Positions 34,731 through 55,224 of a stretch of 64,000 bases of DNA are shown here, piece after piece. The position numbers were made by a program, and so were the translations under genes. Position 1 is the first letter of the stretch, and each line of letters opens with the position of its first letter. Source of the stretch: Microbacterium caowuchunii (GTDB taxonomy: Bacteria > Actinomycetota > Actinomycetes > Actinomycetales > Microbacteriaceae); assembly GCF_008727755.1 (NCBI RefSeq), contig NZ_CP044231.1, forward strand, positions 1,302,001 through 1,366,000, read 5' to 3'. The notes under the pieces were generated by a model, which was given only the letters and a program-made list of their open reading frames with translations, was not told where the DNA came from and did not search any database.

Positions 34731-34733
34731 GGG

Positions 34734-36870: not shown

Positions 36871-36879
36871 GGAGTCCTT

Positions 36880-38394
36880 ATGGCTTCCGCACCAGATTCC
36901 CGTACCACCACTGCCACCGGCGCGGACATCCGCGTGCGATTCTGCCCGTCCCCGACCGGACTGCCGCACGTCGGCCTCATCCGCACGGCGCTGTTCAACT
37001 GGGCGTACGCCCGGCACAACGGCGGCAAGCTGATCTTCCGGATCGAGGACACCGACGCCGCGCGCGACAGCGAGGAGAGCTATCAGCAGCTGCTCGACGC
37101 GCTGCGCTGGCTCGAGATCGACTGGGACGAGGGTGTCGAGGTAGGCGGCCCGCACGCGCCGTACCGCCAGTCGCAGCGGCACGACCTGTACCGCGAGGTG
37201 CTGGAGAAGCTCAAGGCCAGCGGTGCCGTGTACGAGAGCTACTCCACGGCCGAGGAGATCGATGCCCGCAATGCGGCCAATGGGCGGGCGAAGCAGCTCG
37301 GCTACGACAACTACGACCGCGACCTGACCGATGAGCAGAAGGCCGCATTCCGCGCCGAAGGGCGCGAGCCGGCGTGGCGGCTGCGGGTTCCCGACGAGGA
37401 CCTCACCTACGTCGACCTGATCCGCGGCGAGGTCACGTTCCCGGCCGGGTCCTTCCCGGACTTCGTGCTCGTACGTGCCGGTGGCGTGCCCCTGTACACC
37501 TTCGTGAACCCGGTGGACGACGCCCTGATGGGGATCACCCACGTCATCCGCGGCGAGGACCTGATGCCCTCGACGGCGCGTCAGCTGGCGCTGTACCGGG
37601 CCCTCGTCGACGCCGGGGTCACGGACTTCGTGCCGCGATTCGGGCACATGCCCCTCGTGCTGGGCGAGGTGGGCAACAAGAAGCTGTCCAAGCGGGACCC
37701 GAAGGCGGACCTGTTCCTCCAGCGGGAGAAGGGCTTCATCCACGAGGGCCTGCTGAACTACCTCTCGCTGCTCGGGTGGTCCCTGGCACCGGACCGCGAC
37801 GTCTTCTCGCTCGAGGAGATGGTCGCCGCGTTCGACATCGCCGATGTCAACCCGAACCCGGCCCGGTTCGACCAGAAGAAGGCCGAGTCGATCAACGGTG
37901 ACCACATCCGGATGCTGACGCCCGAGGACTTCGCCGCACGCATCGTGCCGTACCTCGTCGCCGCGGGCCTCGTGCAGCCGGAGCCCACCGAGCAGGAGCG
38001 CGCGATGATCGCCGCATCCGCCCCCCTCGTGCAGGAGCGCGTGCAGCTGCTCGGCGAGGTCCCGGGTCTCGTCGGGTTCCTGTTCCGAGATGAGGTCGTC
38101 TACGACGAGGACGCCCTGAAGAGCCTGCCGGCCAATGCCGGTGAGGTGCTCGTCGCGTCGGTCGGGGCTCTCGAAGTGGTCCCCGAGCCGGAGTTCACCG
38201 CCGCAGCCATCCAGGAGGCGCTGCAGATCGCGCTGATCGACGAGCTCAACCTCAAGCCGCGGGTGGCTTATGGTCCGCTGCGCGTCGCCGTGAGCGGGCG
38301 CCGCATCTCGCCGCCGCTGTTCGAGTCCCTCGAGCTCCTCGGCAAGGCGGAGAGCATCCGTCGCCTGGGTGACCTGGTGCAGCGCATCGGGTGA
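36880..38394 (+). CDS. gltX: glutamyl-tRNA synthetase
   Basis: Class I aminoacyl-tRNA synthetase, 504 residues, charging tRNA-Glu. The HIGH signature is in [18 protein letters not shown], and the KMSKS loop is in [24 protein letters not shown] and the [14 protein letters not shown] segments of the catalytic domain are present, with an all-helical anticodon-binding C-domain. It shares the neighbourhood with tRNA-Gln, whose mischarging by this enzyme is normal in organisms using the GatCAB route. Confidence 0.96.
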
Positions 38395-38480
38395 CCCGGC
38401 GCGCCCGGGGCTCGCCGGGTTTGGCGAGCGTGCCGAGGTCGTCTAAGCTTGTCTCTTGGCACCGCTTGCGAGCGAGTCGG

Positions 38481-38552: not shown

Positions 38553-38561
38553 CAAGACAGA

Positions 38562-38600
38562 AAGCCCGGGAAATCCGCAAGGATGAACCGGGCTTCTTGC
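38562..38600 (+). terminator. terminator after tRNA-Gln
   Basis: AAGCCCGG and CCGGGCTT (38562-38569 and 38588-38595) pair around an 18-nt loop, followed by a short T-containing CTTGCATTTC stretch. Confidence 0.6.
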
Positions 38601-38649
38601 ATTTCTCCGCGAGGATCCTGCGCCCGCAACGGCTGACAGAACGCCGGCA

Positions 38650-40062: not shown

Positions 40063-40128
40063 ACCCACATTCTGCTCGGGGCCTCCGACATCGCCGCCGG
40101 GACGTCGGATCGTCCGTGCGAGCCCGAC

Positions 40129-40134
40129 TATCCT
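40129..40134 (+). promoter_or_regulatory. -10 box of the jet operon
   Basis: TATCCT, 7 nt, then the GTG of jetA. The purine-rich GAAGGA between them is too close to the GTG for normal ribosome binding, so a leaderless mRNA is likely. Confidence 0.5.
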
Positions 40135-40141
40135 CGAAGGA

Positions 40142-41605
40142 GTGACGGGATCCCGGGCCGAAGCGGCGTACTCGCGCGCGGTCGCCGCGTTCAGCACGCC
40201 GACCCTCGATCTGCTGCACGGCAGATTCGCGCCCTTCGTCGTCGCCTCCCTCTCGATCCTGTTCTCCGCCGACCGCGCGGCGGTACCGATCGCCGACGCA
40301 CACGCCGAGCTGTCCGAGATCCTCGACGAGCTGCGGCGTGCGGACGAGGAGGACGCCGACCGCCGCGTCCCCGCCGGAAGCGGGCGCGACGTCTGCCGGC
40401 ACTGGGTGCGCCTGGGCTGGCTGGTGCAGCAGATCGATGACGACGTCGAGGTGTACCGTCTGTCCGCACACGCCGTGGAAGCGCTCGAGATCGCCGGTCG
40501 CACCGGTGGGGGCCGGACGCGCGTTTCCAACTCGCGGGTGCGCACGCTGCTCGAGGCGGTGGAGCATCTGTCGGACAGCGCTGAGGCCGACCCCGTCCGC
40601 CGGCTTGCACGTCTTCGCGAGGAACGTGCCGCACTGGATGCGGAGATCGACCGGATCGAGGAGTCCGGTCGGGCCGATCCGCTCGACGATGAGGAGCTCC
40701 TCGAAGAGGCGGAGAACGTCCTCCACCTGGCGCGGGAGCTGCCCGCGGACTTCACGCGCGTCGCGGAGTCGTTGAAGCTCATGCAGCGAGACGTCGTCGC
40801 CCACCTGCGCCGTGACGAGCGGCCGACGGGTGAGGTGCTCCGCGAGTACCTGCAACGGGCGCAGGACGTCATGCAGTCCACCTCGGAAGGGCGGGCGTTC
40901 GCCGGTGCGCTCCGCCTCATCGGCGACCCGGACCGCATCGACGCGCTCACCGAGCAGCTGCAGGGACTGCTCCGGCAGCCGTTCGCGCGGATGCTGGACA
41001 GCAGCCAGCGCACCGAACTCGATGCCATCGGCCGCCGCGTGGAGCTCGGTGTCGAAGAGGTGCTGGCCGCCCAGCGCCGGGCCTCGCACGTCATCACCGG
41101 GCAGGTGAAGACGCACGATCCACTGCGGGACCGGCAGATAGACGATCTGCTGCGCGACGTCATGGCCGGGCTGCACGCCTGGGGCGGGACGGGCACCGTC
41201 GCCGACCCGGTGCGCAGTATGCCGCTCGTCGATGTGGGTCACCTGCGGCAGGCGGTGAGCGACATCCGCCCGCCGGCTGCTCCCGCGCCCCTGGCGGATG
41301 CCGGGGATGTCGAGTTCCTCGACGTCGACACGCGCGCGTGGGGCGGACCGCGGTACGCGGAGCTCGAGGCGTATGTCGCCGGTCTCGGTCAGGAGTTCGA
41401 TCTCGCGCAGGCGTTCACGGATGCCGAGGACGACACCCGCCGCCCGGTCGACCTGGTCGGGTTGCTCGAGATCGCCCACCGGAACGGCATGACGGAGGGC
41501 TCCGAGGTGTCGGTGGTCGAAGCCCTGCGCCCCGACGGCACCACACGACGTTTCGCGTTCCGCGCCGTCACCGCGCGCACGACGAAGGAAGAAGCACATG
41601 ACTGA
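40142..41605 (+). CDS. jetA: Wadjet protein JetA (DUF3375, kleisin-like)
   Basis: The 487-residue protein shows the DUF3375 layout: an N-terminal winged-helix-like part (TPTLDLLHGRFAPFVVASLSILF), a long helical middle with heptad patterns (about residues 155-240, for example LREERAALDAEIDRIEE), and a C-terminal beta/helix part (VDLVGLLEIAHRNGMTEGSEVSVVEALRPDG). In Wadjet systems JetA is the MukF-like kleisin that bridges the JetC ATPase dimer. Those complexes recognise and linearise circular plasmids. It overlaps jetB by 8 nt and starts a leaderless operon. Confidence 0.9.
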   Translation: MTGSRAEAAYSRAVAAFSTPTLDLLHGRFAPFVVASLSILFSADRAAVPIADAHAELSEILDELRRADEEDADRRVPAGSGRDVCRHWVRLGWLVQQIDDDVEVYRLSAHAVEALEIAGRTGGGRTRVSNSRVRTLLEAVEHLSDSAEADPVRRLARLREERAALDAEIDRIEESGRADPLDDEELLEEAENVLHLARELPADFTRVAESLKLMQRDVVAHLRRDERPTGEVLREYLQRAQDVMQSTSEGRAFAGALRLIGDPDRIDALTEQLQGLLRQPFARMLDSSQRTELDAIGRRVELGVEEVLAAQRRASHVITGQVKTHDPLRDRQIDDLLRDVMAGLHAWGGTGTVADPVRSMPLVDVGHLRQAVSDIRPPAAPAPLADAGDVEFLDVDTRAWGGPRYAELEAYVAGLGQEFDLAQAFTDAEDDTRRPVDLVGLLEIAHRNGMTEGSEVSVVEALRPDGTTRRFAFRAVTARTTKEEAHD

Positions 41606-42260
41606 CGTGGACCTCGCGACCGAGGCGCCGACCGACGATCCATTCATCGCGCCGGTGGCCATGGAGGCCGACATCGAGGAGCACTTCCCGGGCGACCGGG
41701 GGACGCTCGACCCGGAGGTACGTCGCGTGCTGGTGCACATCCTGCAGCGTCGCTTCATCGCCGCAGAGCGGAACCGCCGAGAGTGGACCCTCCTCCTCGA
41801 CCACCAGCAGGTGATCGAGTCCCGCCTGAACGATCTGTACCTCCGCCTCGTGGTCGATCACGGTCGGGGCTTCGCCTACAAGCAGCAGCTGCGCTCCGAC
41901 GAGATCGACATGCCGGTCCTGCTCAAGGACGCGCCGTACTCGCGGGCCGAGACCCTGGTGCTCGTGCACCTCCGCACCGTCTACCAACGCGAATCGGCCA
42001 CCGGTGAGGCATCCGTCCGCATCGACATCGAGGACGTCGAGCAGACGGTCCTGAGCTACTTCACCGACGTCGACGGCAGCACCGCCAAACAGCAGAAGGC
42101 CATCCGGCACGCGATGGACCGCCTCGACCGCGAGGGCATCATCAGCGAGGAGACCAGCGGGCGCTACCGGATCAGCGCGCTCGTCGAGATCGTCCTCAGC
42201 GCGGAGACGCTGCGAGAGCTCCGCGATTGGCTGCGTGCGCAGGAGGCGGTGGAACGATGA
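41598..42260 (+). CDS. jetB: Wadjet protein JetB (DUF4194, MukE-like)
   Basis: A 220-residue protein of the DUF4194 family, the KITE/MukE-like winged-helix subunit of the SMC-like Wadjet complex. VRRVLVHILQRRFIAAERNRREW opens the first winged helix. LRTVYQRESATGEASVRIDIEDVEQTVLSYF and AIRHAMDRLDREGIISEETSGRYRISALVEIVLS form the second. The ATG lies inside the end of jetA, and the stop overlaps the jetC ATG (ATGA). Confidence 0.9.
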   Translation: MTDVDLATEAPTDDPFIAPVAMEADIEEHFPGDRGTLDPEVRRVLVHILQRRFIAAERNRREWTLLLDHQQVIESRLNDLYLRLVVDHGRGFAYKQQLRSDEIDMPVLLKDAPYSRAETLVLVHLRTVYQRESATGEASVRIDIEDVEQTVLSYFTDVDGSTAKQQKAIRHAMDRLDREGIISEETSGRYRISALVEIVLSAETLRELRDWLRAQEAVER

Positions 42261-45200
42261 CGATGGTCGACACCCTGTTCGGGCTCATCCCGGCGGGCTC
42301 ACGGGGACAGCAGTGGGTCGCGGAGGACCTGCAGCTCATCAACTGGGGCGGATACGACTCCGGTCCGCACCGCGTCCGTTTCTCACCCGACGCGACGCTG
42401 CTGTGCGGCGGCTCGGGCTCCGGCAAATCCACGCTGATGGATGCGTACATCGCGTTGATGATGCCGCACACCACCCCGTTCAACGGGGCCTCGAACGGCG
42501 GGGTGACCGGTCGGCCCCGGGGTAACGAGCAACGCAACATCCTGTCGTACGGGCGCGGGAAGATCGATGAGTCCCGCACCGCCGACGGCACGAAACTCAG
42601 GGTCCTGCGCGGCGACGGCGAGGACACCTGGAGCGCCATCGCGATGACATGGCTCGATCACGACGGCTCGCGCTTCACGGCGGTGCGGGCCTGGTACATC
42701 CCCGCGGACGCCCGGACCCTCGAGGACACGACCCGAGTCCGGGCCACGGTCGACGACGCCTTCGACCTGGGGCGCCTGGAACCGGCCGCCGCACAGCGCC
42801 TCTCCGACGCCGCGGTGCGGGCTGCCGGCCTGGAGACCCTCGCCACCGACCGGGAGTTCTCGGCGCGGCTGCACGCCGTGCTGGGGATCGGGGCGGCCGG
42901 ATCCGGGGCGAAGGCGGTCAGTCTCCTCGCCCGGATCCAGGCGGGCCAGCAGATCACCACCGTGGACGACCTCTACAAGAAGCTCGTCCTCGAAGAGCCC
43001 GAGACCATGGCGACCGCCGATGCCGTCGTCGCGCACTTCGACGAGCTCGAGAGCACACGGACCCGGATGCTGACCGCCAAGCAGCAGGTGAGCGCGCTGG
43101 AACCCATCCACGGCATCAAGGAGCGGATCGCGTCGGCCGCCGAGCGGGTGCGCGTGATCGACGAGGTGGGGGTGTTCACCGACCCGTCCTCGCTCGCCGC
43201 CCTGTGGAGCGCGCACCGGCGGCTGGACCTCCTCCGGGAGGTGGAGGCCGAGCTCGGTGAGCGGGCCCGTGCGCTGCAGCTCGCCGTACGCGAGAAGCGC
43301 GCGCTCATCGACGCCGCCGACATCGAGCGCGAAGGCCTGCTCGATGTGCTGCGGCAGTCCGGCGGTGACCGCCTGGAGACCGCGCAGCGGGAGCTCCGGG
43401 CTGCGGAGCGCCGGCTGGAGGAGGTCACCCGAGAGCGGGCGAGGTTCGATGCGGTCGTCCGGGAACTCGGGATGGAGGTGACCTCCGCCGCGCAGTTCGA
43501 GGAGATCGTCTCGGGTGCGCGAGGCTCCTCGTCCCAGACCGACGTCCGCGCCGCCCGTGCGGCGTTCGCGGACGCGGAGTCGGCACGCCGGGAAGCCGAG
43601 ACCCGCTTGCGCCGCCTGCGCGAGGAACGCGAGCACACCGCCACGACACGCGGCAGCATCCCCGCGCATCTCGACGAGTCGCGTGCCCTGCTGGCCCGGG
43701 CCGCCGGTCTCGATCCGGCGGACCTCCCGTTCGTCGGCGAGCTCGTCGAGGTGCGCACCGAGTTCGAGCCCTGGCGGGAGGCGTTCAACCTCGCGCTCGG
43801 CGGATTCGCCCGGACGCTCCTGATCGATGCCGCCCGGCTGGCTCCCTTCCGTGCCGCCATCGACTCCGTCCGCACGCCGGAGAGGCTCGCCTACGAGGGC
43901 GCGATCACCGGACTCCCCGAACTCCGGATCGCCGACACAGCAACCCTCCCGGGCCGTCTGGACTTCCGGTCGACGGCCTTCACCGGTTGGCTGCAGCAGC
44001 GGCTGCAGGAGCGCTTCGGCTTTGTCTGCGTGGACAGGTCCGCGCAGCTGGACGACCACGCGAGGGCGCTCACGATCACCGGCCAGATGTCCCACGGGAA
44101 CCGCGGCGCGCACGGCGGGCAGGGCCGGGTCGACATGCTCGGGTTCACCAACGACCGGCGGTTGCGTGAGCTCGACGAGCAGCTGCAGCAGCTCACCGAC
44201 CGCTGCGACGAACTCGCCTCGGCTGCGCGGGACGCGGAGGGAGCGCTCGATCTGATCGGGGCGCACGCGAAGGCGTACGCCCGGATCGAGGACCTCACGT
44301 GGGAGCAGATCGATGTCGCGGCGGTGTCCGCCGAGCGCGATCGTTGGCTCGCCGTGGCGGACGAGGTCACGACGGCCAATCCCGAGATCGCCCGACTCAC
44401 CAGTCAGGCCGAGGAGGTGAGGGTCCGGGCGGGGCGGCTGCGTGACGATCAGGCGCGGCTGGAGAACGAGCTGACGCAGACGCAGGATCGCTGGGCACAG
44501 GTGACGGACGACGTCGACGCCTGCCAGAGCGTCATCGACGCCGCCGATGCGCAGGAGCTCGTGCTGGGCGACGGGCACGCGTCCTTCCTGGACCGGCACT
44601 TCCTGCACACCGAGACCGGTGACACGCTCACCGCCGCAGAGCGTCTCGTGCATCTGGAGACTGCGCTGCGGACCGCCGCGCAGCGTCTCCTCGAGGATCG
44701 ACGTGCGGCGGCCGAGTCCCATGCGGAGCAGCGGGAGGCCATGCGCCGTCTCATGACCGGATTCCTCGAGCGCTGGGACAGCCTCACGATCCTGCCCGAT
44801 CCCGACGAATCGGTCGCGGAGTTCGAGAGCATCCTCGAGGCGCTGCAGACCAACGGCCTGCACGAACTGGAGATCGAGTGGCGGGACAGCCTGCTCAAGC
44901 TCTCCGGAAACGACCTCACGAGCCTGGATTCCACCCTCAGTCGCTCGCTGCGGGAGATCAAGGACCGGATCGAGCCGATCAACCGGATCATGGCGGCGCT
45001 GCCGTTCTACGACGACGATCATCGCCTGCAGATCACACCGCGCGAGAACCAGTCCGAGGCGCGCAGGCGGTTCCGCCGGGAGCTCCGCGAGGTCCGCGGA
45101 CTGATCGATGCCGCATCCACGGATGCTCAGCGCGAGCACGTCTACCGCCGGATGAGTCGCCTCATCGGACGGATGCGGCGTACCGCACCGGAATACGCCG

Positions 45201-45622
45201 AGCTCATCGACGTGCGCAACCATGTGCGCGTGAGTGCCGAGCGGATCGACGCGGCATCGGGGGAGCACGTCGCCCTCTACGACCACATCGGTGAGAAGTC
45301 CGGTGGTGAGTCGCAGGAGCTCGTCGCCTTCATCGTCGGTGCGGCGCTGCGCTACCAGCTCGGCGATGCCGGGGCGGCGCGCCCCCGCTATGCCCCGGTG
45401 TTCATGGACGAGGCGCTGATCAAGGCGGACGCGCACTTCACCAAGCGCGCGATCGGGGCCTGGCGCGGGCTGGGGTTCCAGCTGGTCATCGGCGCCCCGA
45501 ACGACAAGTACAGCGCGATCGAGCCGCATGTGGACGTCGAGTACACCATCCTCAAGGACACCCGGGGCCGCTCGTGGGCGAAGCCCAAAGTGGGGCTTCC
45601 GGATGAGGTGGGCGGGGAATGA
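42257..45622 (+). CDS. jetC: Wadjet protein JetC (SMC/MukB-like ATPase)
   Basis: The 1,121-residue ATPase motor has Walker A CGGSGSGKSTLMDAY at about residues 50-64. Two long coiled coils flank a hinge-like centre (about residues 245-420 and 640-880). The ABC signature is EKSGGESQELVAF, and Walker B is PVFMDEALIKAD near residue 1050. All active-site motifs look intact, so the motor could still bind and hydrolyse ATP. Its stop overlaps an ATG, as expected for a following jetD, but that frame closes after 17 codons. The SbcC/MukB-like loop extruder in Wadjet needs JetD to cut DNA. Confidence 0.92.
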   Translation: MTMVDTLFGLIPAGSRGQQWVAEDLQLINWGGYDSGPHRVRFSPDATLLCGGSGSGKSTLMDAYIALMMPHTTPFNGASNGGVTGRPRGNEQRNILSYGRGKIDESRTADGTKLRVLRGDGEDTWSAIAMTWLDHDGSRFTAVRAWYIPADARTLEDTTRVRATVDDAFDLGRLEPAAAQRLSDAAVRAAGLETLATDREFSARLHAVLGIGAAGSGAKAVSLLARIQAGQQITTVDDLYKKLVLEEPETMATADAVVAHFDELESTRTRMLTAKQQVSALEPIHGIKERIASAAERVRVIDEVGVFTDPSSLAALWSAHRRLDLLREVEAELGERARALQLAVREKRALIDAADIEREGLLDVLRQSGGDRLETAQRELRAAERRLEEVTRERARFDAVVRELGMEVTSAAQFEEIVSGARGSSSQTDVRAARAAFADAESARREAETRLRRLREEREHTATTRGSIPAHLDESRALLARAAGLDPADLPFVGELVEVRTEFEPWREAFNLALGGFARTLLIDAARLAPFRAAIDSVRTPERLAYEGAITGLPELRIADTATLPGRLDFRSTAFTGWLQQRLQERFGFVCVDRSAQLDDHARALTITGQMSHGNRGAHGGQGRVDMLGFTNDRRLRELDEQLQQLTDRCDELASAARDAEGALDLIGAHAKAYARIEDLTWEQIDVAAVSAERDRWLAVADEVTTANPEIARLTSQAEEVRVRAGRLRDDQARLENELTQTQDRWAQVTDDVDACQSVIDAADAQELVLGDGHASFLDRHFLHTETGDTLTAAERLVHLETALRTAAQRLLEDRRAAAESHAEQREAMRRLMTGFLERWDSLTILPDPDESVAEFESILEALQTNGLHELEIEWRDSLLKLSGNDLTSLDSTLSRSLREIKDRIEPINRIMAALPFYDDDHRLQITPRENQSEARRRFRRELREVRGLIDAASTDAQREHVYRRMSRLIGRMRRTAPEYAELIDVRNHVRVSAERIDAASGEHVALYDHIGEKSGGESQELVAFIVGAALRYQLGDAGAARPRYAPVFMDEALIKADAHFTKRAIGAWRGLGFQLVIGAPNDKYSAIEPHVDVEYTILKDTRGRSWAKPKVGLPDEVGGE

Positions 45623-45672
45623 CGATCGGATCGCTTGAACGTCGATCCAGGCATCATCGCGAGAGCATCTAA
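45619..45672 (+). pseudogene. possible 5' stub of lost jetD
   Basis: An ATG overlapping the jetC stop in the ATGA manner used by the rest of the operon opens a frame of only 17 codons (MTIGSLERRSRHHRESI) before TAA. A JetD protein (DUF3322 plus Toprim-like DUF2220, about 400 residues) is expected at this point. No JetD-like sequence is visible in any frame downstream to the end of the window. The stub may be the true old start or a chance frame at the rearrangement junction. Confidence 0.4.
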
Positions 45673-45867
45673 GGACCGAAACCGCTTCTCCCGAAACGTG
45701 TTCTGATAGGGACCGCGTTTGTGGTGGGCGCGACAGCGGAGCTGCCCCGTCTCCATCCGAGCTGCCCAGCGTTGCAGAGTCCGCACCGCAACTCCGGAGT
45801 GCTCCGCGGGACGCGTCCACGGCACCCCTAGATGCTCATTTCGGACACACAGCGGAATGAACCCCAC
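45636..45867 (-). mobile_element. remnant of a DDE transposase N-terminus
   Basis: On the minus strand a frame reads LGVPWTRPAEHSGVAVRTLQRW followed by a basic linker and RSLDALAMMPG. This matches the start of Mu/TnsB-like transposases: a helix-turn-helix with the (V/E)RTLQRW motif, an RG-rich linker, and an alanine-rich EGLAL-like helix. The catalytic DDE part is absent and no terminal inverted repeat is evident, so it is debris rather than a working element. It abuts the jetC stop and probably marks the event that removed jetD. Confidence 0.6.
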
Positions 45868-45985
45868 AATGGCAGCGGGCGCCTACATCGGTTCGGGTTG
45901 GATGATTTATGCGGAATGGGAGACTGGGTGCAGCTCGACATCGAGGGTGATGCTCTTTCCGACCCCCGTGATGAAAGAAGCGTGC

Positions 45986-46633
45986 ATGATCTCGTTGTCC
46001 GCCGCCGTCGGCATTGCTCTCATCGAGCTTGGACTCGCCCTCACCCCCGGGCCGAACATGATCTACCTGGTCTCGCGCAGCATCAGCCAGGGGTGGCGTG
46101 CCGGGATGATGTCGCTTTCCGGCACGGCAGTTGGCTTCGTCGTGTACATGGTGATGGCCAACCTCGGGCTAGCAGCGGTATTCCTAGTTGTCCCATGGCT
46201 GTTTATCGCACTGAAGGTCGCGGGTGCCATCTACCTCCTCTGGCTCGCCTACAAGACGCTTCGCCCGGGAGGGAAATCGCTGTTCGAGACAAGTGACCTT
46301 CCTCGGGATTCGTTCGGCGAACTCTTCCGCATGGGACTCCTGACGAACCTGCTCAACCCGAAGGTGGCGATCCTCTATCTGGCACTCATTCCCCAGTTCA
46401 TCGACCCAGCAGCCGGCAGCATCGTCGCGCAAGGTTTCCAGCTCGGCGCGATCCAAATCCTCGTCGGCGTCGCAGTCAACGGTGCAATCATTGTCGCCGC
46501 AGGTTCCGTCGCCACCTTCCTGCAGCGTAAGCCGACGTGGATGCGGTGGCAGAAGTGGGTCACCGGCACACTCCTCGGCGCGATCGGCGTAAAGCTCGCG
46601 ATCGACGCTCCCGCCCCTGCAGTCGCCCCGTAG
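45986..46633 (+). CDS. LysE/RhtB family amino acid exporter
   Basis: A 215-residue inner-membrane exporter with about six helices. The family signature GLALTPGPNMIYLVSRSISQGWRAGMMSLSG is at residues 15-46, and GLLTNLLNPKVAILYLALIPQFI at about 120-142. RhtB-type proteins export homoserine, threonine, lysine or related compounds; the exact substrate is not predictable. The start at 45986 matches the family N-terminus; an ATG five codons upstream is possible. It lies in the atypical patch that follows the jet operon. Confidence 0.9.
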   Translation: MISLSAAVGIALIELGLALTPGPNMIYLVSRSISQGWRAGMMSLSGTAVGFVVYMVMANLGLAAVFLVVPWLFIALKVAGAIYLLWLAYKTLRPGGKSLFETSDLPRDSFGELFRMGLLTNLLNPKVAILYLALIPQFIDPAAGSIVAQGFQLGAIQILVGVAVNGAIIVAAGSVATFLQRKPTWMRWQKWVTGTLLGAIGVKLAIDAPAPAVAP

Positions 46634-46735
46634 CATCGGAGCGACCGCTTCGCGTACCAGAGGCGTCTGGGGGCGTGACGATCGCCCACGCGTCCGTCTG
46701 CTTATCGCTCCCTCAAGCATCGTCCCGGCCTAGGG

Positions 46736-46788
46736 GCCGAGTGATCTGGAATGGGGGCGGACGCGATTCATCCGCCCCCGCACTCGGC
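46736..46788. terminator. bidirectional terminator between rhtB-like and MFS genes
   Basis: Outer arms GCCGAGTG/CACTCGGC (46736-46743 and 46781-46788) and inner arms GGGGGCGGA/TCCGCCCCC (46753-46761 and 46771-46779) nest around a 9-nt loop. It sits between two convergent genes. No T run is seen on either side. Confidence 0.65.
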
Positions 46789-47999
46789 TATCGCTTCGCC
46801 CGCCCGCCCGCTCTACTCAGCAGCGCGCCGGCGATGAGGAGGGCTGCAGCGCCTGCAGCGATTCCGAACGTGGCTGCGGGCACGGTCACCGCTTGGATGA
46901 TGACGCCGGCAAGAGCACTGCCGAGTGTGGCACCCACGTTGTGACTGGTGTTGGCCCAGGTCGTCGCCGAGTTCTGGCGGTGCTCACCACCGGCTTGATG
47001 GGCAGCGAAGTACGCGACGATCATCACCGGTGAGAAGAACAAACCAGCTGCGGCGAGCACAAGGGAAACGGCGACGGCTCCGGTCAGCACGGCGATGGTC
47101 GAGCTGATGGCGACGAGCGCAGTGGTCAGGATGAGTAGCTGTCGGATAGGAGAGCCGGGAACGCGGAGAGCGCCGAAGACGAGCCCCCCGACGGCGCTGC
47201 CTCCGGCGAACAGCCCGAGGGCTATGCCTGCGGCCGCCGGCCCTCCTGCGTCGGAAACGATGACCGGGACGCTGATGCTGATACTGCCCGAGATCGCCCC
47301 GGCAACGAGAACGGGTATCAAGACCGCGACGAATCGAGCATCGAGAATCAGGGGGCGTTCGCGGGGTGCTTCTTCATCCGCAGGGGGTCGTGGCCCCATA
47401 TCGCCGACTGCTCGGCTCGCGACGAAGAACAGGCCACCGACGAGGACCAGGCCGGCCGGGATGAGAAGCACCGTTCCGGGGGCGATGAACGCGAGGGCGA
47501 GACCCGTGGCGGCTGGGCCGCCGAGATAGAGCAACTCTTCGACGACCGCATCGAAGCTGAGTCCCTTTTTCAGCAGCTCACGTGTGGGTGTGAGCCGCCC
47601 CCATGCGACGCGCATCGTTGGCCCGAGGGGTGGCGCGAACGCGCCGGCGACGGCCGCGAGAATGACGAGCGTCGCGCCGTTCGGTGCGTAGAGAGCCGAG
47701 AGACCGATGACAGCGACCGTGGTGCTGAACATCACGACCAGCAGGGCAAGGATCCGTCGGGCCCCGAAGCGGTCGATGAACCAGGCGCGGAGCGGGGCGA
47801 GGAAGCTGGCTCCCGCGCCGTACAAGCCGACGGCGATACCCGCCAGCCCGATGGAGCCGGTCGCGTCGGTGACGGCGTAAAGCAGAGGGAGGAAGACCAG
47901 GGCGTAAGCGCCCCGGCCGATGAGTGCGACCCCGAAGGTCGGAAGAACTCCGGGCAATCTGAGCACGTCGATATAACGTGCCGTCCGGGTGGACTGCAT
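46788..47999 (-). CDS. MFS transporter
   Basis: A 403-residue permease with about 12 helices. The motif A equivalent is RAWFIDRFGARRILAL near residue 75, and a cytoplasmic loop (VGDMGPRPPADEEAPRERP) lies in the middle. It resembles sugar-efflux or SetA/YdhP-like drug pumps but no substrate can be given. The ATG is preceded by GGAGTCACC. It converges on the exporter gene across a nested hairpin. Confidence 0.83.
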   Translation of the reverse strand: MQSTRTARYIDVLRLPGVLPTFGVALIGRGAYALVFLPLLYAVTDATGSIGLAGIAVGLYGAGASFLAPLRAWFIDRFGARRILALLVVMFSTTVAVIGLSALYAPNGATLVILAAVAGAFAPPLGPTMRVAWGRLTPTRELLKKGLSFDAVVEELLYLGGPAATGLALAFIAPGTVLLIPAGLVLVGGLFFVASRAVGDMGPRPPADEEAPRERPLILDARFVAVLIPVLVAGAISGSISISVPVIVSDAGGPAAAGIALGLFAGGSAVGGLVFGALRVPGSPIRQLLILTTALVAISSTIAVLTGAVAVSLVLAAAGLFFSPVMIVAYFAAHQAGGEHRQNSATTWANTSHNVGATLGSALAGVIIQAVTVPAATFGIAAGAAALLIAGALLSRAGGRAKR

Positions 48000-48258
48000 G
48001 ATGGGTGACTCCAAGCCAGACAGCGCGCTGACAGGGCGCTGAGAAAACGATCGGTGAGCAGACGGCGCCCGAAGGCCGCAGTCACCGCTCAATCACTGGA
48101 AGGAAGCACCCGCTCACTCTACAGAAGTCCGATTCGGACTAGATCGCCCAGTCGAAAGCGATCGTCTCCGGTGCGATCCGGCTTGTATCGCAGGAGCGGC
48201 TGCCGCTAACGTGCCCCGCAACCCTAAGGGTCAGGGCCTTTCGACAGGACGGGTACAC

Positions 48259-48984
48259 ATGAGACGCACGCTCCACATCGATGGTCTCGCGAACGTCCGC
48301 GATCTCGGGGGTCTAGACCGCAACGACGGAACCTTCTCGCCCGCAGGCGTGTTTGTTCGCTCGGAACGGCTGGAACGTGTCGATGACGATGGGTGGGAGG
48401 CGCTCCGCGCACACGGAGTACGCACGGTGATCGACCTTCGTAGGCCAGAAGAGCGCACAGGACAGATCCCCGCCACGATCAAGCACGTTCACGTTGACCT
48501 CGACGGCGGCGACGAGACGGATTTCTGGGCAGAGTATGAAGCAGACGGACGGTGGGGTACGCCGCTCTACTATCTCGCCCACCTTCAGGCGCTTCCGCAC
48601 CGACTCGCGCTCGTGCTGAGCGCGATCGCCGCCGCCGATGAAGGGGCGATTCTCTTTCACTGTTCAGCGGGCTGGGACCGTACCGGCCTCGTTGCCGCGG
48701 TCCTGTTGCGGGCGATTGATGTCACCGAAGACGCCGCAGTAGCCGACTACCTTGACACGTTCGCGAATGCCGACGCCATGGCCGCGCTGCACGAACGATC
48801 CTCTGAGGTCGAAGCACGACAGCAGATCCTCGATCGCTCTGGGCACACCGCGGAGTCAGCGTTCCGCGAGATGTACGCGAACTTGGACCTTGATCTTTGG
48901 TTCGCTGAATCGAATGTCGAACCTGCGACGCGAGTGGCCGTCGAGACGTGGCGTGGGGCCGCTGCCCCACCGGTCAGAATCTGA
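48259..48984 (+). CDS. tyrosine/serine protein phosphatase (PTP family)
   Basis: A 241-residue cytosolic phosphatase with the CX5R signature HCSAGWDRTG (C135, R141). NVRDLGG near the N-terminus and the VIDLRRPEER segment are typical of the bacterial MptpB-like and Y-phosphatase 2 families. The substrate may be protein phosphotyrosine or phosphoinositide. The ATG at 48259 is chosen because the protein then starts just before the NVRDLGG region. A GTG at 48211 would add 16 residues. Confidence 0.85.
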   Translation: MRRTLHIDGLANVRDLGGLDRNDGTFSPAGVFVRSERLERVDDDGWEALRAHGVRTVIDLRRPEERTGQIPATIKHVHVDLDGGDETDFWAEYEADGRWGTPLYYLAHLQALPHRLALVLSAIAAADEGAILFHCSAGWDRTGLVAAVLLRAIDVTEDAAVADYLDTFANADAMAALHERSSEVEARQQILDRSGHTAESAFREMYANLDLDLWFAESNVEPATRVAVETWRGAAAPPVRI

Positions 48985-49278
48985 GCACCCAACAGCTTCT
49001 CATCGAGCGCAAAACCGGTGGCCGCCAGAAACGGTCGTTTTCGGCGGCGTCGGCCAGCCCCGAGAGGTGAGGCGGGGCGGCCATCTGAGCTGCCGGATCC
49101 GCTTCGGGTGTCGTTTTCGCTTCTCACGCCGTCCGGCTTCGCGGGTCGCTCAACTTTCCGACCCATCGAGGCGCACGATAAGAGTGGTGCTCGTTGCGGT
49201 AGCGAGAACCCGATCTGAGACGTCCCGGAGGTCGGCTTCGACGGACGTCGCTTTCGCCCGGCTTTGATCACCCACCCG

Positions 49279-49635
49279 TGGGCGGTGACAAGACCCCGCT
49301 CACCCCCGGGCACGACCTTGCTGGCACCGTCATCCGTACCGGCGCGCGTGCAGGGCTTCCAGCCCGGTGACGAGCTCTACGCTCGCCCGCGGGATCACCG
49401 GATCGGCACGTTCGCCGAACGCATCGCTGTCCACGAAGCCGTGCCGGGGTGTCGTGTGAGTTCCTGCTGATGCGCGCCAGCGGCGACCAGCTGCGGCAGA
49501 TCGCCGAGCTCGTCGACGCCGGCACGATCCGCACCGTCGTCGGCGCGACATTCCCCTTCGACCAGACCCCGCAAGCACTCGCGTCCCTCTCCCGGGGAGG
49601 CGCCCCCCGGCAAATCCGTCATCACCATCCCCTGA
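49279..49635 (+). pseudogene. decayed zinc-less NADP-dependent alcohol dehydrogenase
   Basis: Fragments of a medium-chain dehydrogenase appear in changing frames. The first is GGDKTPLTPGHDLAGTVI, then after a frameshift VQGFQPGDELYARPRDHRIGTFAERIAVHE. The whole cofactor-binding middle (about 150 residues) is missing. The C-terminal part reads IAELVDAGTIRTVVGATFPFDQTPQALASL and, after another shift, GKSVITIP and a stop. At least two frameshifts and one large deletion make it non-functional. Confidence 0.75.
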
Positions 49636-49772
49636 CGCAGCCGCCCGCTCCTCACCGTCAACCGCCACCGACCAAGGACACCCTGCCCGTGAGCCCTATG
49701 GGGTGCAGCCGACGGTCGAGCTCCCGCGGTGCGATCCCCGTCACTCTTGCCACCTGAGCACGTCGATTTGAC

Positions 49773-49830
49773 GTGCCGTCAGTGAAGGATCGCCTCATAC
49801 CAGCAGGCGGCGATCCTTCACTGACGGCAC
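49773..49830. repeat. perfect 22-bp inverted repeat
   Basis: The arms at 49773-49794 and 49809-49830 match exactly over 22 bp around a 14-nt loop; each contains GTGAAGGATCGCC or its complement. A smaller palindrome, CACGTC-GATTT-GACGTG, lies at 49759-49775 and overlaps the outer edge. It sits about 55 nt past the end of the leftward alpha/beta hydrolase gene, where it could terminate transcription, but there is no T run. Confidence 0.85.
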
Positions 49831-49884
49831 CGAGGGGGCTGTCGGCAGATCACGCCCACCGCCGACAGCGCCCTCGGACAGCAC

Positions 49885-50757
49885 TCAGATCCCGGTGAGT
49901 ATGGACGCGACCGTCTTGCTGCGACGGATGAACCCGGCGTGGGAACTGTCGATCGTGTGCACGGCGAACTCGTTGTGCGGCACGGCCCGGTCAGCGTCCG
50001 CGATCATCCGGTCCTGCAGAGCAGGCGGGATGGAGCGGTCGTGGCTGAGCCGGACGAACGTCCTCGGAATCGTTCCCCAGGTGTTCGGGTCGACCGATCC
50101 GTCGCCCATCATCACAAGCACGGACTCATCCGGTTGCATGATGTTCAGGAAAGCCAAGAACTCCGCCTCGGTTGCTTCCGCCATCGTCGCCTCGTGCAGC
50201 AAGCCGAGCTGCGTCCGGTCAGCAGTGCGATAGTTCGCCCGTCCCGTGCCGATCACTGCAGGGTCGCCGACGGCCACGCCGCCCAGCTCCGTCAACATGC
50301 TGGTGGCGAACTCGGGTTCGGCCATCCACTCGATGGGGTTCGCACGATCGACGCACACCCAGGCCGAAACGTAGACGATGTGTGCGAAGAGTTCCGGCGC
50401 ACGGCTCGCCGCAGCGCCGATCGTGATCCCGCCGAGGCTCGCACCGACGAGCCGCACCGGGCCGGTCTTCGCAAGGGCACGCGCGACGGAGAGGACCGCG
50501 TCGACGTTGTCGTCCAAAGTGACCGTCGCCAGAGTGGAGACTTCGGAACCGAAGGCTTCGAGATCCTGAGGTGCCTGGTAGGACACCGGATACTGGGCCT
50601 GAAGTCCATGACCGGGCAGGTCGATGGCGTATGAGCGGTAACCATCGACCGCCAGCTGCCGCTGCAGTGGCGCCCACATGGACGAGCTCGTGCCGGCCCC
50701 GTGGACCAGCAGAAAGGTGGTCGACGGATCGACGGGAGAGGTGGTTCGTGCATTCAT
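49885..50757 (-). CDS. alpha/beta hydrolase
   Basis: A 290-residue soluble hydrolase. The oxyanion HG motif is FLLVHGAGTSSSMW near residue 17. The nucleophile elbow is GASLGG, and the acid and histidine lie in the C-terminal part (DRAVPHNEFAVHTIDSSHAGFI). The closest patterns are esterases and salicylate-esterase-like or haloperoxidase-like hydrolases. The substrate is unknown. The promoter region carries three direct repeats that suggest control by an activator. Confidence 0.87.
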   Translation of the reverse strand: MNARTTSPVDPSTTFLLVHGAGTSSSMWAPLQRQLAVDGYRSYAIDLPGHGLQAQYPVSYQAPQDLEAFGSEVSTLATVTLDDNVDAVLSVARALAKTGPVRLVGASLGGITIGAAASRAPELFAHIVYVSAWVCVDRANPIEWMAEPEFATSMLTELGGVAVGDPAVIGTGRANYRTADRTQLGLLHEATMAEATEAEFLAFLNIMQPDESVLVMMGDGSVDPNTWGTIPRTFVRLSHDRSIPPALQDRMIADADRAVPHNEFAVHTIDSSHAGFIRRSKTVASILTGI

Positions 50758-51297
50758 GGTTGGTTCCTGTCGCTGAGAAAGAGATCTCTTTCATCGGCAA
50801 CTCGTCGTCGGCCACCCGGGAGGGCACACCGATCGATGCCACCGGCAGGGTGGCGGGGAGCGCCGGCTCAGGCCGAGCGCAGGCGAATGTACTGAAGCAC
50901 CATAAGGTCACCATAGCGTCCCCATAGACGAGCTCATTGCAGCTCTACACTCTCGCCCCGGAGGGCAGGCAAGAAAGGCCCCAACGATCACCCATCCGGC
51001 AGCACTCGACGAACAGAGAAGCCGCGAAAGCCCGCGATTCGGCAGCCAGACAGACGGACAACGAGGGGAAGCCGCCGCTCATCGGCTCAGCGGATCGGCG
51101 CAGCGCGAGCACCGATCTGTGGAGTTCTGAAACGGCGCGGATGCGCCGCCTCCAGCGGGATGTCACGTGAATAGGGTGGTGCACACGCTATGACGCGTGG
51201 GCGCCGAGCGAGACAGTGGGATGCCGACTCCCACGCCCTCGGCGAGGGGTCGCCTCCCGCCCGGAACGGGCGGGAGCATCCACCCGAAAGGACTCTC
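50758..51297. other. intergenic region without a convincing gene
   Basis: The 540 nt between the alpha/beta hydrolase and the membrane protein hold a promoter candidate for the hydrolase with direct repeats (50886-50927). The remainder (about 50930-51180) has only short frames with poor codon character. I see no gene, tRNA or element there. It marks the right edge of the atypical patch that follows the jet operon. Confidence 0.5.
50886..50927 (-). promoter_or_regulatory. activator-type promoter with three 11-nt-spaced direct repeats
   Basis: On the plus strand CACCATAA, CACCATAG and CCCCATAG begin at 50898, 50909 and 50920, exactly 11 nt apart. Read on the minus strand they lie just upstream of TACATT (50886-50891), a good -10 box, with a 6 nt gap. 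Direct repeats of one helical turn placed close to the -10 box are the known layout of SARP-type activator sites. The transcript would run to the hydrolase gene after a leader of about 120 nt. Confidence 0.5.
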
Positions 51298-51750
51298 GTG
51301 CACACGCTCGCACCACGCCCCACCACCGTCAGCGTCGCCTTCTGGATCTGGCTGCTGTCCGCCATCGTCGGCATGGTCTCGGTCGTCAACATGCTCGTGG
51401 CCGTGAACCTCCTCGCCACGATGGCCTCGACGGCCACCGAGGACCTGGAACCCTACTTCCTGCTGACCGGGTTCGGCTTGATCATCGGCTGGGTCGCGGT
51501 CGGCGCCGTCGTCGTCCAGGTGATCCTGTCGGTCTTCTTCCGCGACGGCGCGAACTGGGCACGCATCGTGCTGACCGTCATCGCGGTGCTGTCCCTCACG
51601 CTCGTCTTCAGCGCGCCGGGCGAGGTGTTCAGCTGGGTCTACGTCGTCGCCAACGCGATCGCGGTGGCCTGCTCGTTCGTCCCCGCCTCGAACGGGTACT
51701 TCGCGGGTTCGCGCCGCCGGCGCTCGACGGCCCAGCCGGTCGCAGCGTGA
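51298..51750 (+). CDS. membrane protein, 150 aa
   Basis: A four-helix membrane protein (helices at about residues 12-38, 54-78, 85-105 and 108-130) with a basic C-terminal tail (GSRRRRSTAQPVAA). No family is recognised. The GTG start follows AAAGGA. Its stop overlaps the GTG of the MpaB-like gene, so the two are made together. Confidence 0.75.
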   Translation: MHTLAPRPTTVSVAFWIWLLSAIVGMVSVVNMLVAVNLLATMASTATEDLEPYFLLTGFGLIIGWVAVGAVVVQVILSVFFRDGANWARIVLTVIAVLSLTLVFSAPGEVFSWVYVVANAIAVACSFVPASNGYFAGSRRRRSTAQPVAA

Positions 51751-52634
51751 CCGAGGGCAACCGCTCGCCCGCGTACGCGCCGACGGGCCGCCCGTCGGTG
51801 GTGGAGCGTGGCGCGCACACGACGGACGACGGACTGTTCGGACCGGCGAGCCTCACCTGGCGCCTGCACGCCCAGCGCGCCATGATGCTGGTCGGCAGCG
51901 GCGCGGCGACGACGCAGATGCTCAACCCGCGCGTCATGCGGATGATCGACCAGGCCTCGCACTTCCGGCAGAACCCGGAGGCGCGGGCGAAGGGGACGTT
52001 CCAGTACATCATCACGATCACCTACGGCGACACGGCCACGGCGAAGCGCGCGGGCGAGAGGCTGCGGCGCATGCACCAGGCGGTTCTCGCGACCGACCCG
52101 AACACGGGGGAGTCGTACAACGCCGAGGTGGCGGAACTGCTGCTCTGGGTGCACAATACGCTCACCCTGACCGCGGTCCGTGCGTTCCAGCGCTACGGAC
52201 CCGGGCTCACGGATGCGGAGGCCGACGCCTACGTGCGGGAGCAGATCGTCGCCGCCGAACTCGTCGGCATCGACCCCATGCTCGCACCGGAGACGGTCTC
52301 CGAGCTCGAGGAGTACATGGTGCAGGTGCGCTCGTCGCTCGCGATGATCCCCGAAGCGCTCTGGTTCCGGGACATGATGACCGCGCACGGGAAGGGCGTC
52401 GGCGGTCTCGCGGAGAAGTTCGTGAAGGACGCGGCGATCGGGCTCATGCTGCCCGAGCACCGCGCCCTGTTCGGGCTGCAGTTCTCCCGGCGCCGGGACC
52501 GGATGGCGGAGCGTGCCACGAAGGCGCTGTTCGCCCTGATGGACTCCAAGGCCCCGGTGGAACGGGTGATCCCTGATCTCCGGCACCAGGTCGACGTCGC
52601 GGCGTTCGGCGCGCGACGGCAGCCCACCGCATGA
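51747..52634 (+). CDS. MpaB/DUF2236-family oxygenase-like protein
   Basis: A 295-residue alpha-helical protein. FGPASLTWRLHAQRAMMLVGSGAATTQMLNP is the N-terminal DUF2236 signature, and the conserved GTFQYIITITYGD and ELLLWVHNTLTLTA segments follow. In the family, relatives bind heme b and include rubber oxygenase (Lcp) and mycophenolic acid MpaB. The catalytic role of stand-alone actinobacterial members is largely unknown. It is coupled to the membrane protein upstream. Confidence 0.85.
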   Translation: MTEGNRSPAYAPTGRPSVVERGAHTTDDGLFGPASLTWRLHAQRAMMLVGSGAATTQMLNPRVMRMIDQASHFRQNPEARAKGTFQYIITITYGDTATAKRAGERLRRMHQAVLATDPNTGESYNAEVAELLLWVHNTLTLTAVRAFQRYGPGLTDAEADAYVREQIVAAELVGIDPMLAPETVSELEEYMVQVRSSLAMIPEALWFRDMMTAHGKGVGGLAEKFVKDAAIGLMLPEHRALFGLQFSRRRDRMAERATKALFALMDSKAPVERVIPDLRHQVDVAAFGARRQPTA

Positions 52635-52649
52635 CGGGCACCGGGGTGG

Positions 52650-55151
52650 TCACCGCGCGGCGGTGCCCACCCCGGTCCCGGCAGCGCCGCTGAGCGCCGA
52701 ACGGCCGCTCACACCCAGCTTCGTGTACATCCGGCCCAGGTGACCTTCGACCGTGCGCACCGAGAGTACGAGCGCGGCGGCGATGTCGCGGTTCGACAGC
52801 CCGGCGGCGATCATCGCCGCGATCTCGCGCTCCCGCTTCGTCAGCGGCACGGCGCTCGGCTGCGCCGGGCCCGCCGGTTCGCCCAGCAGTGCGCGCAGCA
52901 TCGTCCGGCGGTGCGCCGCCTCCGCCGCGAGGTCCTCGTGCCGCCGCCGCCGCGCGGCGGTCTCGCTCTGCGCGGCCACGTCGGCCGCCACGGCGACCAG
53001 GCCCAGCTCGTGCATCCGACCGCTCATCTGCAGGAGGCCGGCGTCGTCGTCGGCGAGGAACAGTTCGGCGTGCCCGACCTGCGCGGCGTGCACGTCGCCG
53101 TCCAGGTGCGGGGAGAGGGCGGCGAGGCGTGCGGCGGCCTCCGCGTCTCCCGCCCGCACGGCCAGATGCAGGGCGCGCGCGGCGGCACCGAACAGTGACC
53201 GCTGCTCGAGCCGCGCGGCGAGCGCGAGGGCGGACGCGGGCGCACCGCCGGAACCGGCGAGTTCCACGGTCAGCAGGGAGACCTCGTCGTCCGGATGCAG
53301 AACGAAGTTGTCGGTGCGGGGGTGGGCGGCGTACTCCTGCGCAGCGGCCCGCGCCTGAACGAGATCGCCGCGTAGCGCGAACGCCTCGGCGAGCTGCGCG
53401 AGTCCGCGTGGGAGGAAGTCCGCTGGTCCTTCCGTGCGTAGCGTCAGCACCGCGTCGCGAGCGGCATTCAGGGCGGTCGCCGCGTGGCCGGAGGCGAGAG
53501 CCACCTCCGCCTCCGCGATGCGGTGCATGGCGTCGTCGAGCCGGACGGTGTCGGCATGGTGGCGGGCGAGGGAGCCGGCGGCATCCCGCACCGCCGCCGA
53601 GACCCCGGAGGAGCGCAGCACGGCGAGGAAACGCGCCCCGGAGACCTCCTCGGTGACCCAGGCGGACCCGTCCAGATGCCGCGACTCGCGAGCGGCGGCG
53701 CGGAGCGCGTCAGCCGCCTGTGCCGGCCGCCCGAGCTGGACGAGGACGAGCGCATGGATCGCGTCCACGCGCTGCCGCAGGGGGGAAGCGAGCGGTCGCA
53801 CCCGGGCGTGGTCATCGTGCGCCTGGGCGAAGCGCCCGCCGTAGGCCGCATGCAGGACGCGGTGTCCCCGCAGCGCGCGGGCGCCGGGGGAGTCCTCGTC
53901 GCGGGCACGGAGCAGGACGATCGCCTGGTCGAGCACCTCGAACGCGGCATCCACATCGCGCGTGCGCGCGTGCACGACATCTGCTCGAGCCGCCGTGACG
54001 TCGACCCAGAGTTCCTCCACGTCCGCGGGAAGCGGTCCGCTCGGGGGCGTGCGGGCGCGCAGCTCCCGTTCGGCGACGTCGAGGTGGAGCGTCGCGTCCT
54101 CGAGACGGGCGAGCAGACGGGCGGCGATCGCGGCCTGGACGAGCAGGGGGACCGCTGCGTCCGACGATTCCTCTGCCGCGACGCGCGCCGTCGCGATCGT
54201 GAGCGCCGCCGCGTACCGGTGCACGCCGTTCGCCACCGTCGCGGCGGTGAGGGCGAGGGAGGCCGGGATCGCGCGGCCGGTGCGCAGGGCCCAGAGCAGA
54301 GCCGGGATGTCGCCCGGGGCGACGGCCGTGTCTCCGCGGACGAGCCTGCCGAACACCTCCCGGTGGAAGGCTTCGCGCCGATCCGGGGAGGTGGTGCGGC
54401 GGACGCAGTCGCCCACCGCGGGCGGCGTGGTTCGCAGGAAGCCCTCCTCATCGGCGGCGATGAGACCGAGGGTGAGCAGATGCTGCACCGGCGGGGTCGC
54501 GGAGGCCGGCGTGCCGCCGTCGTCCGAGAGGAGATCGCCGGCGGGCATCGGCTCCGTCGCGGCGATCCTCTCCAGCAGGAGGCGCACCTCCGGTCCGAAC
54601 GCGGCGAGCTCGGCATCGATGCGGGTGGAGAGGGTCACCGGGTCGAGATCGGTCTGGAGGTCCCAGGTGCCGCCGCTGCGGATGATCGCTCCGGTCTGCA
54701 GCCCCGCGTCCACGAGCGCCACCAGCACCGCGAAGACCCCCCGGGTGGCACGCCAGAGGGTCCCCGTCAGGCGGGCGCTGGGAGGATCGCCGAGTGCGGC
54801 GGTCAGAGCGCTGACGAGGTGTGCGCGGTCCAGTGGCGCCAGTGCGATCACGGACAGGCGTCCCTCCGCCACCGCCCGGGCGATGCCGGGAGGGAGCGTC
54901 GCGCCGTGACGCGCCGTCAGGATCAGCCGTCGTCCGGCCGGGACAGCCGACGGGGCCGTCGCCGGGGACGTGCGCAGAACCGCCACGCCTGCCGACTCGG
55001 CGGCACGCGCGACATCGTCGGCCAGGCGACTCTTTCCCACGCCCGGCGGACCGGTGATCAGGATGCCGGAACTTTCCGCCGAGGTGAGGGCTGCGAGCGC
55101 CGCATCCTTCTCCCCCGTCCGCCCGGAAGCAGCCCAGTTCGCCCCACGCAT
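52650..55151 (-). CDS. large AAA-type LuxR (LAL) transcriptional regulator
   Basis: An 833-residue regulator. The N-terminal ATPase has Walker A GPPGVGKS (residues 34-41) and a short P-loop domain to about residue 180. A long helical repeat region in the middle (about 320-740) is TPR-like. The LuxR helix-turn-helix lies at residues about 765-825 (LTKREREIAAMIAAGLSNRDIAAALVLSVRTVEGHL). The ATG follows GAGGGAG. It diverges from pepN with 73 nt between starts and ends near the MpaB-like gene. The inducer is unknown. Confidence 0.9.
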   Translation of the reverse strand: MRGANWAASGRTGEKDAALAALTSAESSGILITGPPGVGKSRLADDVARAAESAGVAVLRTSPATAPSAVPAGRRLILTARHGATLPPGIARAVAEGRLSVIALAPLDRAHLVSALTAALGDPPSARLTGTLWRATRGVFAVLVALVDAGLQTGAIIRSGGTWDLQTDLDPVTLSTRIDAELAAFGPEVRLLLERIAATEPMPAGDLLSDDGGTPASATPPVQHLLTLGLIAADEEGFLRTTPPAVGDCVRRTTSPDRREAFHREVFGRLVRGDTAVAPGDIPALLWALRTGRAIPASLALTAATVANGVHRYAAALTIATARVAAEESSDAAVPLLVQAAIAARLLARLEDATLHLDVAERELRARTPPSGPLPADVEELWVDVTAARADVVHARTRDVDAAFEVLDQAIVLLRARDEDSPGARALRGHRVLHAAYGGRFAQAHDDHARVRPLASPLRQRVDAIHALVLVQLGRPAQAADALRAAARESRHLDGSAWVTEEVSGARFLAVLRSSGVSAAVRDAAGSLARHHADTVRLDDAMHRIAEAEVALASGHAATALNAARDAVLTLRTEGPADFLPRGLAQLAEAFALRGDLVQARAAAQEYAAHPRTDNFVLHPDDEVSLLTVELAGSGGAPASALALAARLEQRSLFGAAARALHLAVRAGDAEAAARLAALSPHLDGDVHAAQVGHAELFLADDDAGLLQMSGRMHELGLVAVAADVAAQSETAARRRRHEDLAAEAAHRRTMLRALLGEPAGPAQPSAVPLTKREREIAAMIAAGLSNRDIAAALVLSVRTVEGHLGRMYTKLGVSGRSALSGAAGTGVGTAAR

Positions 55152-55224
55152 CGCATCCACTCCCTCGAACAGATCGATGCTACGGCAGGCGCGTCCGCCG
55201 CTCCGCCGCGTGAAACCATGGAGC

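Follow-up and report, generated by a model that had tools for sequence, protein, structure and literature searches.

The 64,000-nucleotide stretch of Microbacterium caowuchunii DNA analysed here (the window; positions 1302001-1366000 of C1, the single contig of a 3.26 Mb genome) carries a jetABC operon, which encodes a kleisin, a KITE protein and an SMC ATPase, without the nuclease JetD of type I Wadjet systems. It is likely that this operon is an old nuclease-less three-gene motor that derives from type I Wadjet/MksBEFG, has been kept by selection and probably acts as an accessory condensin. That the motor is maintained without a nuclease appears very probable, while the chances that chromosomal DNA is its main substrate are, on our analysis, about even. 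The operon and its 3' junction comprise the following features:

40142..41605, plus strand: jetA (mksF), kleisin, DUF3375, with a GTG start and PADLOC, Pfam and PDB matches
41598..42260, plus strand: jetB (mksE), KITE protein, DUF4194, with an 8-base overlap with jetA
42257..45622, plus strand: jetC (mksB), SMC ATPase, with a 4-base ATGA overlap with jetB
45619..45672, plus strand: 17-codon frame opening with an ATGA at the jetC stop (45619-45622) and closing with a TAA that ends at 45672, read as a coincidence

Each of the three genes is one uninterrupted open frame, where the start of jetC was set by us to the ATG at 42257 (the mechanically called open reading frame begins at a TTG at 42227). 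The proteins match the PADLOC models of type I Wadjet (JetA1 with an E-value of 8.8e-214, JetB1 with 1.1e-112 and JetC1 with 0), the Pfam families DUF3375 (JetA), DUF4194 (JetB) and AAA_29/SbcC_Walker_B (JetC) and, by sequence, chains of solved PDB structures (E-values of 1.7e-19 for JetA, 1.4e-05 for JetB and 1.5e-47 for JetC). The JetC translation contains a Walker A (GGSGSGKST), a signature (KSGGESQE) and a Walker B motif (VFMDEALIKA), such that JetA, JetB and a JetC with an intact SMC ATPase are all present; the single frames and the agreement of PADLOC and Pfam confirm what a first-pass annotation of the letters had described, namely an intact, overlapping operon with ATPase motifs. Subunits, gene order, overlaps and ATPase motifs resemble those of type I Wadjet (JetABCD, MksBEFG) of E. 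coli GF4-3, P. aeruginosa PA14 and C. glutamicum, but the JetD/MksG nuclease is absent here from both operon and genome. The arrangement is also that of MksBEF, an operon of SMC, kleisin and KITE genes without MksG, and JetB matches the Pfam MksE family with 37.5 bits (cut-off 27 bits). MukBEF of E. coli is, as here, an SMC-kleisin-KITE complex without a nuclease, but the MukB N-terminal domain PF04310 reaches only 20.5 bits in the window operon, below its cut-off of 23 bits. A search that covered Smc and ScpB found a canonical Smc and ScpB in the same genome.

The nuclease of type I Wadjet, composed of DUF3322 and the Toprim domain JetD_C, is missing beyond the operon. The first-pass annotation had noted that jetD is gone after jetC, and this is borne out by profile searches of the entire 3.26 Mb genome, in which JetD_C (PF09983) has no match at E-values up to 0.001 and DUF3322 (PF11795) none at E-values up to 1. 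In the controls, PF09983 was positive in one of 14 genomes (C. glutamicum), and PF11795, at E-values up to 1, in four of 14 including C. glutamicum, with one above the cut-off. Within the window, a JetD hidden Markov model matched none of the frames of at least 40 amino acids. The ATGA overlap and the stop after 17 codons are indeed present in the sequence. A relic of a jetD start was considered here, as JetD-bearing loci do overlap in this way, but most JetD-less Microbacterium loci lack an ATGA at the end of jetC, so that the overlap was judged a coincidence.

Relatives of the locus mostly share this absence. A JetD profile trained on 14 actinobacterial JetD proteins, all 14 of which are among its positives, was applied to 80 related loci retrieved by JetC; 18 were positive and 62 negative, four of the negatives lying on short contigs (L046, L048, L053 and L056), where the contig of L046 stops within an apparent jetD start. 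The profile reaches the most distant Microbacterium lineage with 46-102 bits, and scores 444 bits for L150, 379 bits for L151 and 467 bits for L182. PF09983 was run over the 38 genomes behind 39 chosen loci (38 JetD-less loci and L018), and 31 of these genomes have no JetD_C at all. The seven others hold a full-length match and a fragment (L018), a fragment only (L017) or a long match outside the fetched flanks of jetABC (L016, L026, L037, L050 and L052).

For the genus, 198 Microbacterium genomes including the window genome were sampled, and JetC matches were found in 87. By JetC identity to the window these fall into group I (at least 60%, 67 genomes), group II (34-39%, eight genomes) and group III (26-29%, 22 loci, leaving out one broken further locus in G052). 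Adjacency of JetD_C, which is our reading of the JetC and PF09983 tables with checked totals, is seen in two of the 67 group I genomes, the window genome being among the 67 (G101 and G042; some group I matches lie at contig ends, so that this count may be slightly low), in two of the eight group II genomes (G118 and G025) and, with the same PF09983 profile, in 22 of 22 group III loci. Among fetched loci, JetD is absent from six of eight in group II and present in all six of group III. Some PF09983 matches have identical coordinates in the genus sample and the named loci, so that the two sets are not independent. Loci L152-L156 and L159 represent this second, distant Microbacterium JetABC lineage (34-39% identity) that is mostly JetD-less (6/8 genomes), and four sampled group I loci of the genus keep jetD or a piece of it; of these operons L150 is intact, while L018, L151 and L166 are broken. 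At the level of the phylum, 298 evenly drawn genomes, with at most five JetA candidates scored per genome and adjacency read from tables, yielded 19 full-length JetA loci, nine with and ten without an adjacent JetD_C. The ten are the window and nine fetched loci, all nine of which have jetB and jetC and are negative with the JetD profile. Since their JetC scores set seven of the nine far apart from group I, the JetD-less arrangement is not confined to the group I lineage. Another JetD-less JetABC lineage, from a different family of the class, is represented by L173-L175, L177, L178 and L180 (JetC with 284-296 bits in the group I model); in L180 only, jetC is followed by a frame of 791 residues that has a P-loop (GKAGTGKST). 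Conversely, the group I operon (L182) of G447, a genome from another genus of the same family, has both an intact jetC and JetD.

A tree of JetA, JetB and JetC was built from 94 rows, excluding L046, L048, L053, L056, L160, L161 and L166 and scoring L018 as JetD-bearing despite its broken jetD. All 16 rows of the window clade are JetD-less, as are all 12 rows of a clade of Leucobacter, Corynebacterium and Gulosibacter. At least ten changes of JetD state are needed on the whole tree, nine of them within group I, and a model that allows losses only requires 22 JetD losses over the whole tree. The JetD proteins of L150, L151, L018 and L166 cluster together with modest support (0.76); they share 28-47% identity with each other, except for L150 and L166 (73%), and 32-49% with four JetD proteins from group I loci in other families. 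This pattern would fit an old JetD that was inherited vertically and lost repeatedly better than a recent acquisition, without proving it, and repeated JetD loss is the likeliest cause of the state changes. A tree in which the group I rows of Micrococcales (50 rows, some of them assigned by us from metagenome-assembled genomes or unnamed records) are forced into a single clade is rejected (p 2.6e-45, tested after the first tree had been seen). Corynebacterium nests among these rows, from which we infer a transfer of jetABC between orders; the operon seems, as far as the tree tells, to have crossed bacterial orders. Type I Wadjet/MksBEFG would have lost its nuclease before the window clade radiated, leaving a three-gene complex of kleisin, KITE and SMC ATPase that selection would then have kept.

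Selection on the three genes was estimated with a codon model. In the window clade (16 rows) omega is 0.041 for jetA, 0.039 for jetB and 0.049 for jetC; the 12 rows of the JetD-less Leucobacter/Corynebacterium clade give 0.034-0.038 and the seven rows of a third JetD-less clade 0.041-0.043, against 0.056-0.090 for two clades with JetD (seven and eight rows). This comparison sets different clades against each other, and synonymous substitutions have probably come close to saturating, so that omega is rough, a point that counts against our reading. By these estimates, JetD-less jetABC is constrained at least as much as its nuclease-bearing relatives. Tree lengths amount to 2.5-10.2 substitutions per codon over the three JetD-less clades, and the 6.8-8.6 substitutions per codon of the window clade have passed without a broken frame, which argues against neutral drift. 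In 76 of the 80 loci, jetA, jetB and jetC are each covered to at least 85% by one frame, and the remaining four (L046, L048, L053 and L056) lie on contigs shorter than 4.5 kb. All 66 JetD-less tree rows have the signature motif, and 65 have Walker A, which is missing only from a partial piece of L165. The complex is therefore, as in MksBEF, stable over evolution under selection, and the earlier suggestion that JetABC alone is still useful stands: strong purifying selection in JetD-less clades speaks against decay, as the first-pass annotation had itself laid down beforehand. A disarmed and decaying Wadjet, with jetABC a vanishing relic after the loss of JetD, is accordingly most improbable. 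Relatives that are breaking do exist, with jetD split over two frames in L018, jetC in two frames in L151 and L165, and both jetC and jetD truncated in L166, and visual inspection shows JetD-like starts that remain 3' of jetC in L074 and L078; but an omega of 0.03-0.05 with no sign of relaxation relative to JetD-bearing clades, together with frames intact over three clades of the lengths given, largely contradicts decay.

Several further observations weigh against a maintained motor with a chromosomal role. The JetD-bearing L150, L151 and L018 (broken) lie inside the largely JetD-less part of the tree, so that this motor is evidently able to retain its JetD, G052 combines a truncated group I jetC with an N-terminal piece of jetD, and jetC of the JetD-less L165 runs over two frames. 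The Walker B pattern is found in 60 of the 66 JetD-less rows (two first matched elsewhere), while six group II rows are unmatched. The operon occurs unevenly, in 67 of 198 Microbacterium genomes, and its position is variable, with gltX 5' of it in six of 80 loci; both are more in keeping with an accessory element or a defence system than with a condensin that does housekeeping. Moreover, the C. glutamicum relative, which has MksG, has an effect on plasmids but none on the folding of the chromosome (PMC7083940, in part).

From homology to other JetABC complexes, the three proteins would form an SMC dimer-of-dimers that acts as an ATP-driven DNA loop extruder. Without JetD there would be no cutting by the known route, and JetABC may, less surely, compact DNA or help to segregate it beside the Smc complex of the cell. 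A published precedent for such a motor is the nuclease-less MksBEF of P. aeruginosa, for which the section of PMC10586767 at hand reports a role in chromosome organisation, and the window operon is a variant of this known kind. Unlike P. aeruginosa MksBEF, it is actinobacterial, stands near JetD-bearing relatives in a history of several separate changes of JetD state and, apparently, of transfer from one order to another, and is known here from sequence. In Paenarthrobacter lasiusi, likewise an actinobacterium, the "Wadjet" of Table 6 consists of JetA, JetB and JetC without JetD, a trio that the excerpted text lists without comment on the missing JetD and that we liken to the present one by description, not by sequence (PMC11719660). 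In the open-access literature, with most subscription papers outside the search, no paper was found that treats JetD-less JetABC of Actinomycetota as a class.

On our analysis an accessory condensin, itself an evenly balanced call, is favoured over non-cutting plasmid control, which we regard as unlikely. The latter would recognise small circles by their total extrusion and hinder them by compaction, mis-segregation or polar sequestration. It would be in line with the patchy distribution and apparent lateral movement of the operon and with the polar position of the C. glutamicum complex, whose MksF and MksG interact with DivIVA (PMC7083940, in part). Viral contigs hold no relatives this close, and four of 72,556 plasmid records matched, all below 60% identity. 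Carriage by phages or plasmids was rejected on these same results. Plasmid control is opposed by B. subtilis, in which suppression of plasmid transformation needed all four Jet subunits (PMC10586767, passages seen), and by the lack of consistent linkage of jetABC to other genes.

The first-pass annotation had alternatively proposed that another protein replaces JetD. This did not hold for the neighbourhood, as no conserved JetD substitute gene lies up to 6 kb from jetABC. What recurs there in at least six loci is JetD itself with the frames antisense to it, ABC transporters, or genes that reflect local synteny. Replacement in trans by a nuclease encoded elsewhere also appears improbable. Some PF09983 match does exist in 12 of the 67 group I genomes, eight of them beside a second jetC of group II or III, and the window has a DUF222 gene 5' of jetA with a C-terminus that, by eye, we take to be HNH-like. 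However, the window genome has neither a JetD_C nor a DUF3322 match, PF09983 matches nothing in 55 of the 67 group I genomes, tRNA-Gln and jetA lie too close together in L005 for the DUF222 gene to fit, and no neighbour is conserved. A topoisomerase IB gene lies 3' of jetABC in seven close relatives and has no match in the 64 kb window.

The surroundings of the operon bear on how JetD was lost:

36880..38394, plus strand: gltX, 5' of jetABC also in L003, L005, L007, L010, L033 and L042
38481..38553, plus strand: tRNA-Gln(ctg), beside gltX
45658..45867, minus strand: N-terminal fragment of a DDE transposase (rve and Mu-transpos_C), recognisable part 45709-45843
45623..55221, no strand: stretch missing at the same place in L005 and L010, with the transposase fragment and LysE, MFS, Y_phosphatase3 and alpha/beta hydrolase genes

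The antisense frame had been taken for the first 70 or so residues of a Mu/TnsB-like transposase, which holds for about 45 of them: residues ~9-53 share 66% identity over 45 residues with the N-terminus of a 478-residue frame that bears rve and Mu-transpos_C domains, and the remainder of the 45658-45867 frame has no match in this transposase. As a query, the fragment matched three of 58 genomes, its own among them. Window positions 31713-38577 correspond to 1-6865 of L005, jetABC to 6909-12381 and 55222-57705 to 14005-16488, so that ~9.6 kb follow jetC in the window and ~1.6 kb in L005; in L005 and L010 a different frame opens 9 bases past the jetC stop. Since L005 lacks the fragment region and JetD alike, the transposase fragment is no sign of how JetD was lost. 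A recent disarming by insertion or deletion, as first proposed, is not supported: the 15 other members of the window clade, L005 and L010 included, are JetD-less, and the fragment region is private to the window when compared with L005. A recent transposon-linked loss of jetD was rejected likewise, as the whole clade is JetD-less and relatives carry other DNA after jetC. On the 5' side, the window has ~1.5 kb extra between tRNA-Gln and jetA (38577-40135), with the DUF222 gene on the minus strand, and in L005 jetABC begins ~50 bases after the aligned gltX-tRNA block. Identity to five relatives (L003, L005, L007, L010 and L033) is 86-87% for jetA, 86-90% for jetB, 82-84% for jetC and 78-79% for gltX. 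For gltX of the window and six relatives omega is 0.013, with a codon tree of 5.7 compared to 2.4-3.2 for the jet genes of the same seven taxa; this tree is oddly long, so that gltX was not relied on as a yardstick.

Traces of a lost JetD contact were sought at the level of residues. In JetA, extra conservation at alignment-row positions 8-157 (numbered from five residues before the annotated start) is lost in JetD-less relative to JetD-bearing group I rows, with a circular rank of 1/492 and a block-shuffle p of 0.001 for a region picked after the scan had been seen. The comparison used 17 and 51 rows and dropped the JetD-bearing L018, L150 and L151, 14 group II and III rows and the JetD-less L024, L051, L061, L067, L071, L073, L074, L078 and L165. 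In JetD-bearing group III this added conservation is not seen (ratio 0.98-1.03), which speaks against a general JetD contact, so that the signal stays suggestive. A leucine before F-x-G-D in JetB is present in 20 of 20 JetD-bearing and 32 of 60 JetD-less group I rows, but was rejected as a marker of JetD as group II runs the opposite way (absent from both JetD-bearing rows and present in five of six JetD-less rows).

With ten of 19 phylum JetA loci lacking an adjacent JetD_C, JetABC in defence surveys should not be taken for a working Wadjet before JetD has been checked. A broader proposition, which we advance tentatively and with somewhat more doubt than confidence, is that Wadjet repeatedly sheds its nuclease across Actinomycetota and that bare JetABC would be a self-sufficient, laterally transferred element selected for a function of its own, either a mobile accessory condensin or a non-cutting plasmid machine. 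MukBEF and MksBEF have been proposed to descend from a Wadjet-like defence system (PMC10586767, in the portion consulted). The proposed step, in which the nuclease is lost and the motor kept, appears several times among the close relatives of the window operon, and since JetD-bearing sisters are available for comparison, the question of nuclease loss is directly testable. If true, repeated shedding of the nuclease would replay the route by which MksBEF and MukBEF have been proposed to arise from defence.

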